DNA from: Gemmatimonadota bacterium
GTDB lineage: Bacteria > Gemmatimonadota > Gemmatimonadetes > Gemmatimonadales > Gemmatimonadaceae
NCBI GenBank assembly: GCA_003223455.1
Contig: QHVE01000015.1
Span: 6,279-52,961 of the forward strand
DNA: 46,683 nucleotides
Direction of reading: 5' to 3'
A program made the position numbers and the translations under genes. Below, piece by piece: positions 19,395 to 21,675 of this stretch. The stretch's first letter is position 1; each line of letters starts with the position of its first letter. The notes beneath the pieces were generated by a model that was not told the DNA's origin, made no database searches, and saw nothing but the letters and a program-made list of their open reading frames with translations.

Positions 19395-19988
19395 CTATCG
19401 CGCCGACGCGACGGCTGCCGCGAGCGACGCGTAGGCCTCTTCGTTGAGCGCGTTGAACTTCATCTCGCGCCACACGACCTTGCCGTCCTTGCCGACGACG
19501 TAGACGGTGCGGCTCGCGACGGGACGACCGGCGGCGTGCGACCCATAGCTGTCGGCAACCTTGAGCTCAGGGTCGGATACGAGCGCGAAGGGGAACTTCA
19601 TCTCCGACGCCCACGAGACGTGGCTGGCGACGCTGTCCGCAGAGACGGGGAGCACCACGACGTTCTCACCGAACAGCTTCGCGTGCTCGTCGCGGAACTT
19701 CGTCAATTCGGCGGTGCAGCCGGAGGTACGGTCTTTCGGGTAGAAGGCGATGACGACGACCTTGCCGCGGAGTGAAGCCAGGGTCACCGGCGTGCTTCGC
19801 GTGCCCGAGCCATCGGCCCACTGCGCGGTGAAGTCGGGAGCGGTCTGTCCGACGTCGGGACCCGCAGGCGCCGGTGCGGTCGCGCCCGCCTGTGTGGCCG
19901 TCTGAGCTCGCGCTCCGAGGGACAGGGTGACGAGTGCCAGGGCGGCGAGCAGCGATGACCGGGAAATGCGCATCGAGTAGTTCATCAT
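19395..19988 (-). CDS. Exported 1-Cys peroxiredoxin (AhpC/TSA, Bcp-like)
   Basis: Reduces peroxides, here in the periplasm. The 197-residue protein has a signal peptide (MRISRSSLLAALALVTLSL, cleavage after ARAQ) and a thioredoxin-fold peroxiredoxin domain. The active site reads YPKDRTSGCTAELTKFRDE with peroxidatic C91. The Thr expected three residues before it is present as T88. Bcp proteins often have a resolving Cys five residues later, but here that place is Thr, so this is a 1-Cys enzyme needing an outside thiol. Several start codons cluster (19988, 19985, 19973); all give the same signal sequence. It is divergent from the selenoprotein candidate, with 279 bases between them that hold no other gene I can support. 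Confidence 0.88.
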   Translation of the reverse strand: MMNYSMRISRSSLLAALALVTLSLGARAQTATQAGATAPAPAGPDVGQTAPDFTAQWADGSGTRSTPVTLASLRGKVVVIAFYPKDRTSGCTAELTKFRDEHAKLFGENVVVLPVSADSVASHVSWASEMKFPFALVSDPELKVADSYGSHAAGRPVASRTVYVVGKDGKVVWREMKFNALNEEAYASLAAAVASAR

Positions 19989-20222
19989 CACGGGGAGTGC
20001 GGTTGTCAGGGTGTGTCGGAGCAGCCGGGCTCCGCGCAGCGATCAACGATGGCGACTGCACCGCGCCAGGACCAGACATGGGTCGAGCACGTGGAACGCG
20101 GATGGCTCCCATCTCAGGTGCGCCGCCAAGGCGTGTATCGCGGGCGAGACGGACGGCGAAGCGGCCGGATTCGCCACTCGAACGTCCAATAGGACGCCGG
20201 GGCGGCGCGCACCCGGCCGCCA

Positions 20223-20267: not shown

Positions 20268-20495
20268 ATGCACATCACGATCGAATACTGCACTGTTTGA
20301 AGCTACGAGCCCCGGGCCGCCAGGTTGGCGGCCGAGCTCGAGCAGCAATTTCCCGACGCGACGGTGGAGCTCATCCCCGGGTCGGGTGGACGATTCGAAG
20401 TGTCGAAGGACGGCTCACCGATCTTCCAGAAGTCGAAGCTCGGTCGACATGCGGAGCCCGGAGAGATCGTTGGCTTGTTGCGCGCGACAGTCTGA
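20268..20495 (+). CDS. SelW-like (Rdx family) selenoprotein with in-frame TGA
   Basis: A 75-codon gene, MHITIEYCTV, then TGA at 20298-20300, then SYEPRAARLAAELEQQF and onward to the stop at 20493-20495. The protein matches the Rdx/SelW/SelT thioredoxin-like fold: a first beta strand, a C-x-x-U redox motif (Cys8, U11) at the strand-helix turn, a helix with PRAARLAAELE, then VELIPGSGGRFEV and GEIVGLLR at the C-terminus, which is the standard order for this short family. Bacterial relatives carry CxxC or CxxU at this place. Reading frame, length and similarity continue unbroken across the TGA, and a stem-loop of bacterial SECIS type follows it. Its likely role is a thiol redox protein; substrates are unknown. 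The alternative is a Cys-to-stop nonsense mutation. The required selA, selB, selC and selD genes are not in this window. Confidence 0.82.
20306..20340 (+). promoter_or_regulatory. Putative bacterial SECIS element after the UGA codon
   Basis: The upper stem is 8 bp (20315-20322 pairing with 20326-20333) with a G-G-T apex at 20323-20325. A lower stem of 5 bp (20306-20310 with 20336-20340) is joined through an asymmetric internal loop. The first apex G is 23 bases past the TGA, inside the range known for bacterial SECIS elements, and a G-G-U apex is what SelB recognises in the E. coli fdhF element. The bulged U of the E. coli stem is not evident. Confidence 0.65.
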
Positions 20496-20595
20496 CCACC
20501 GTTCCAGCAGAATCTGATCCGGGCCGATGCGTCGTCTGGACGCGTTGGCCCGTGGCACGTCCCACCCCACGTTACCCGAGCATCATCCCACACAG

Positions 20596-21675
20596 ATGCG
20601 CATCGCAATCTCCACCGGTGGCGGCGACGCCCCGGGTCTGAACGCCGTCATCCGCGCCGCTGCGCTCTCCGCGATCAACCGAGGCTGGGACGTCCTCGGC
20701 ATCAAGCGCGGCTTCGCGGGCCTCATGGGCGAGGACGAAGTCATCACGCTGACGAAGGACTCGGTGCGCGGCATCGCGCACATGGGCGGCACGATCCTCC
20801 GCTCGACGAACCGCGGGAACCCGTTCTTCTATCCGCGGAAGCAGGCCGACGGGAGCTACAAGGAGGAGGATCGCTCGGACGAGCTGATGGAGAACGCACG
20901 TCGCCTCGGCATCGACGCGCTGATCTCGATCGGCGGCGATGGCTCGCTGGAGATCGCTCGGCGGCTGTGCGCGAAGGGAATGCGCATCGTGTGCGTGCCG
21001 AAGACGATCGACAACGACGTGAGCGGCACGGTGACCACCTTCGGCTTCGATACGGCGGTGAACACCGCGCTCGAGGCGATCGACAAGCTGCACACGACCG
21101 CCGAGAGCCACGATCGTGTGATGGTCATGGAGGTGATGGGACGCGACGCGGGGTTCATCGCGCTGCACGCGGGCGTCGCGGGCACGGCGGACGTGATTCT
21201 GATCCCGGAAATTCCGTACGACATCGAGAAGGTCTGCGAGAAGATTCGGGCGCGCGATGCGGCGGGTCGGCTGTTCTCGATCGTGATCGTCGCCGAGGGA
21301 GCGTTCCCGCGGGGCGGGCACTCGCACACGCTCGGCGAGTCGCTGCCGGGCCAGGCGCGCCGGATCGGCGGCGTCGCCGAAGCGCTCGCGCGCGAGATCC
21401 AGCACCTCACGGGCAAGGAGACGCGGTCGCTCGTGCTGGGACATCTCCAGCGCGGTGGGATGCCGACCGGCTACGACCGATTGCTGGCGACGCGCTTCGG
21501 CGGCGCGGCGGTGCGGGCGATCGCCGATGAGAAGTGGGGGCAAATGGTGGCGCTGCAGTCCCCCCACATCGTGACCATTCCGATCGAAGAGGTGCTCGGC
21601 GAGACCAAGCGAGTCGACCCCAGCCACGACGTCGTCCAGACGGCGCGTGCGACAGGGATCAGCTTCGGCGACTGA
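20596..21675 (+). CDS. pfkA: 6-phosphofructokinase
   Basis: Phosphorylates fructose 6-phosphate in glycolysis. The 359-residue protein shows the PFK signatures in order: GGGDAPGLNAVIRAA at the N-terminus, GGDGS at 113-117, PKTIDNDVSGT at 135-145 with catalytic D139, EVMGRDAGFIAL, and GHLQRGGMPTGYDR. Known PFK work uses two positions to guess the phosphoryl donor: Gly at GGDG-S favours ATP, and Lys in PKTIDND is common in PPi-type and in group III ATP enzymes. This pairing suggests an ATP-dependent group III-like enzyme. The ATG at 20596 precedes MRIAISTGGGDAP; the frame stays open upstream to 20527 but that part is not PFK-like. It lies 100 bases after the selenoprotein candidate. Confidence 0.94.
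   Translation: MRIAISTGGGDAPGLNAVIRAAALSAINRGWDVLGIKRGFAGLMGEDEVITLTKDSVRGIAHMGGTILRSTNRGNPFFYPRKQADGSYKEEDRSDELMENARRLGIDALISIGGDGSLEIARRLCAKGMRIVCVPKTIDNDVSGTVTTFGFDTAVNTALEAIDKLHTTAESHDRVMVMEVMGRDAGFIALHAGVAGTADVILIPEIPYDIEKVCEKIRARDAAGRLFSIVIVAEGAFPRGGHSHTLGESLPGQARRIGGVAEALAREIQHLTGKETRSLVLGHLQRGGMPTGYDRLLATRFGGAAVRAIADEKWGQMVALQSPHIVTIPIEEVLGETKRVDPSHDVVQTARATGISFGD

Follow-up and report, generated by a model that had tools for sequence, protein, structure and literature searches.

A SelW-like selenoprotein gene with an in-frame TGA in Gemmatimonadota, usually found upstream of pfkA

Analysis of the window, the whole stretch of 46,683 nucleotides under study, identified positions 20268–20495 (+ strand) as what is almost certainly the gene of a SelW-like selenoprotein with a predicted thioredoxin fold, in which UGA would be read as selenocysteine (Sec) by means of a bacterial SECIS (bSECIS) hairpin to give a CxxU redox motif. 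The evidence comes from the family of the encoded protein, conservation of the TGA and its exchange for a Cys codon, the Sec machinery of the host genome and a hairpin that follows the TGA.

Reading frame and protein family

Translation gives one 75-residue Rdx-family product, MHITIEYCTVUSYEPRAARLAAELEQQFPDATVELIPGSGGRFEVSKDGSPIFQKSKLGRHAEPGEIVGLLRATV-stop, with Cys as codon 8 and a TGA as codon 11 (20298–20300), the sole internal TGA of the frame; the resulting motif, C8-T-V-U11, lies near the N-terminus, and the frame stays open to a normal stop, likewise TGA, at 20493–20495. This bears out the single frame and the C-x-x-U spacing proposed in a preliminary description of the DNA, and the family motifs quoted there on the two sides of the TGA (EYCTV before; PRAARLAAE, PGSGGRFEV and GEIVGLLR after) are all present. 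The homologues begin at the same Met. Scored with Cys standing in for Sec, the protein passes the full-model curated cut-offs of Pfam Rdx (PF10262; 76.7 bits, E=1.7e-21, cut-off 22.6), TIGR02174 CXXU_selWTH (60.8 bits, cut-off 34.2) and NCBIfam NF041051 SelTWH (99.1 bits, E=1.2e-28, cut-off 88, whole model covered), which confirms the Rdx/SelW identity suggested earlier. The full name of the last model, SelTWH_Campy (SelT/SelW/SelH family (seleno)protein), points to Campylobacterota, whereas the protein described here is from Gemmatimonadota. Named relatives from the protein search are mostly from the latter phylum, the closest being Gemmatimonadetes/Gemmatimonadaceae MAGs, and the sequence relatives with known structures include a number of Rdx proteins and, as a weak match, Selenoprotein W.

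Some Rdx homologues in related genomes have other arrangements. One on a 5.1 kb contig (G158 C55; L082, 638–853) contains two TGA codons, IEYUAEUEY, and is thus UxxU as against the CxxU listed for the family; beyond the second TGA, the RNA can form a hairpin (−14.5 kcal/mol). A search through 395 genomes of the phylum gave no close relative of this homologue, whose contig may be contamination. On G045 C29 (L083, 889–1041), there is a weak Rdx-like match, 40% identical over 52 residues, that has a single in-frame TGA (RRCTYU) and could represent a second Sec-type Rdx paralogue.

Conservation of the TGA and the selenocysteine machinery

Of 198 related genomes searched, 138 have the protein, and the match contains a TGA in 136 of them; together with the Rdx and NF041051 matches, this places the frame far beyond chance. 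At 50 loci read codon by codon, which take in contigs from Chloroflexi, Actinomycetota, Planctomycetota, Holophagae and Myxococcales, the Sec-site codon is TGA in 49 and TGC (Cys) in one. Homologues with a residue other than Cys or Sec at this site, which the preliminary description had named as grounds for giving up the selenoprotein reading, are therefore not seen among these loci. Since a single base separates TGA from TGC or TGT, and the host genome is a draft assembly (4.96 Mb, 127 contigs), the TGA might be taken for a nonsense mutation or a misread codon in a Cys-type Rdx gene. Its presence at the same codon in 49 loci of separately assembled genomes already refutes this. In addition, the part of the protein downstream of the TGA is under purifying selection (pN/pS 0.26–0.45 in eight intact relatives, about 0.3), and the RNA-level selection on loop and stem described below also speaks against a pseudogene or a sequencing error. 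We reject both, and consider the chance that either applies to be negligible. In a congener (G004, C3:91353–91573; L076 and L062), selW is split over two frames after about residue 51, which reflects either a frameshift or a sequencing error.

The preliminary description had proposed a search of the same genome for selA, selB, selD and the tRNA-Sec gene, and all four were found: selA (539 bits) and selB (367 bits), both above cut-off, tRNA-Sec (selC; 72.8 bits, anticodon TCA) and selD (370 bits). The host is thus not a genome without selB and selC, the second circumstance in which the reading would have been abandoned. The selD frame (L014, 1598–2641, − strand), which adjoins the tRNA-Sec gene, has one in-frame TGA itself and reads SFARCAGU..., with the Sec codon in CAGU, a known Sec position of SelD. 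Sec use in the host is supported by selD as a second, independent selenoprotein gene. The selA gene (L012/L013, G000 C112:23981–26216) is followed by a partial, near-identical selA copy (571–645 bp, 99–100%) that interrupts a HAD-like frame and is either a recent duplication or an assembly artefact. The host genome also carries a Cys-type (CPRC) Rdx paralogue (L080, G000 C57:143834–144055), which is 35% identical and common to other congeners.

A frame that is open under TGA=X cannot on its own tell which residue is inserted, and the TGA could in principle be reassigned to another amino acid (for example Trp, codes 4/25) or be passed by leaky read-through. However, selW and selD themselves both end in TGA, tRNA-Sec(TCA), SelA and SelB are present in the host, and a relative that lacks Sec machinery carries Cys at this position, not Trp. 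We reject reassignment and read-through on this evidence and regard them as exceedingly improbable.

That relative, G113, is a 100% complete, one-contig genome with the TGC form, the sole full-length Cys form. No match to selA or tRNA-Sec was obtained in it, and none to selB above cut-off. Its Rdx protein (L075; family f1, genus g23) is a 54% identical orthologue whose gene likewise lies upstream of pfkA, but it differs from the gene in the window in the TGC at the Sec position, in a GCG loop codon and in the Sec machinery, none of which was found. Three genus-mates (G031, G056 and G103) have the TGA together with selA, selB and tRNA-Sec. A single genus with the Sec form and its machinery, and with a Cys form without that machinery, is a clean case of coupled loss.

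Over the 198 genomes, selA or tRNA-Sec was detected in 133 of the 136 with Sec-SelW vs 24 of the 62 others (Fisher p 8e-21, which is not a clean probability because the genomes are related). Weak tRNA-Sec matches of about 49–54 bits, treated as probable false positives (such as the one on C77 of the host genome and the best of G055, G075, G076 and G112), are counted as machinery in this table, which makes the co-occurrence test conservative. The Sec-SelW genomes with neither selA above cut-off nor a detected tRNA-Sec are G046, G058 and G119 (72%, 86% and 95% complete); each has a weak selA match below the cut-off, and we count them against the selenoprotein reading. As in the preliminary description, we infer that Sec is incorporated at position 11, which is supported by the machinery, the conserved TGA and the Cys form in a relative without machinery.

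A bSECIS-like hairpin after the TGA

A bSECIS-like hairpin spans 20298–20347 (+ strand), with an upper stem of 8 bp (20315–20322 / 20326–20333) and a 3-nt apical loop, GGU (20323–20325), at a distance of 22 nt from the TGA. It folds with −29.5 kcal/mol, corresponding to z −4.2 against dinucleotide shuffles and z −3.6 against synonymous shuffles. Rfam at its gathering threshold returned nothing in the window, and the hairpin was judged instead by the published constraints on bacterial SECIS elements (PMC13188914), with all of which it agrees in loop, stem, spacing and fold energy.

Over 50 sequences, the z-score against synonymous shuffles has a mean of −0.99 and is negative in 44; on average, the fold is thus only modestly more stable than the coding constraint explains, a weaker signal than expected. 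Loop codon bias and in-register pairing are more informative than this measure. With the 49 sequences aligned in register, 93% of the cells for the eight upper-stem pairs contain a standard pair, as opposed to 17–57% when one arm is slid by 1–6 bases; in some sequences, both bases of a third-position pair have changed (CG, TA and GC at columns 21/33). At the loop codon (codon 19), 19 of the 20 Arg are encoded by AGG, all 19 Ser by AGT and all 10 Gly by GGT, vs shares of 7%, 7.5% and 15% of their own codon families at other codons of the same regions. Judged from this pairing and codon bias, both loop and stem are selected at the RNA level. A sigma-70-like promoter was looked for and none was found, which we count against the selenoprotein gene as the best explanation.

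A mechanism is proposed where the hairpin, whose loop lies inside the coding sequence, would recruit SelB with GTP and Sec-tRNA(Sec) at the UGA, leading to insertion of Sec at position 11. The product would be a small SelW-like redox protein with a predicted thioredoxin fold, in which the Cys8/Sec11 pair may cycle between a selenenylsulfide and the reduced form, as in an oxidoreductase of the thiol-disulfide type.

Association with pfkA and relation to known selenoproteins

The 6-phosphofructokinase gene pfkA (20596–21675, + strand; Pfam PFK, PF00365, 5.7e-104) follows selW after a gap of 100 nt. In 25 of 30 related whole-genome loci (L024–L053), it likewise comes directly after selW on the same strand, and it is also downstream in other Gemmatimonadota contigs (L057, L058, L061, L064 and L067); in L037, the selW and pfkA frames apparently overlap at the stop codon. 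On the other side, a divergent AhpC/TSA peroxiredoxin-like gene with an N-terminal signal-like stretch (19395–19991, − strand; Pfam AhpC-TSA 1.1e-31) was found beside selW only in the window and in one congener, the closest relative, with a weak match on a distant contig.

The short frame, its position near pfkA in most relatives and the strong hairpin might together indicate a chance ORF in a regulatory leader of pfkA, where the hairpin matters rather than the protein. The strength of the Rdx and NF041051 matches argues against this, as does the low pN/pS downstream of the TGA, and selW is not beside pfkA in several relatives and in other phyla. A leader is therefore rejected as having next to no likelihood, and the selenoprotein gene is retained. 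selW and pfkA (20268–21675 in the window) form a possible operon and may be co-transcribed. No paper linking bacterial SelW to phosphofructokinase was found in the literature searched. The conserved neighbour does no more than suggest a role of SelW in redox protection or control tied to glycolysis, and such a functional link would be speculative; we think it unlikely that the Sec-SelW of Gemmatimonadota is both an operon partner and a redox regulator or protector of 6-phosphofructokinase.

Bacterial SelW-like CxxU selenoproteins have been described since 2005–2006 (PMC1088965, PMC1794560), and recent reviews (PMC9312934, PMC13188914) include them. The gene described here shares with them the family (PF10262), a CxxU motif with Sec in second place and an in-frame UGA with a bacterial SECIS hairpin after it, but differs in that it occurs throughout Gemmatimonadota and usually lies directly upstream of pfkA. 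The family is already known and the gene is a further, real member of it; the less ordinary observation is only the conserved placement upstream of 6-phosphofructokinase, which is kept even by the Cys form. The string "Gemmatim-" does not occur in the main text of any of PMC1794560, PMC9312934 and PMC13188914, and the non-subscription literature searched yielded no paper on Gemmatimonadota and selenoproteins or selenocysteine by title.

The comparative evidence establishes a selenoprotein in Gemmatimonadota, a phylum absent from the selenoprotein papers searched, and Sec-SelW is widespread among the related genomes of this phylum. The interest of the gene rests on this breadth, on the Sec/Cys exchange pair and on the pairing with pfkA. 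If true, a partnership between Sec-SelW and pfkA would tie the selenium-dependent redox state to glycolysis, and the conserved pairing of the two genes provides a testable lead on the role of SelW-like proteins in bacteria.
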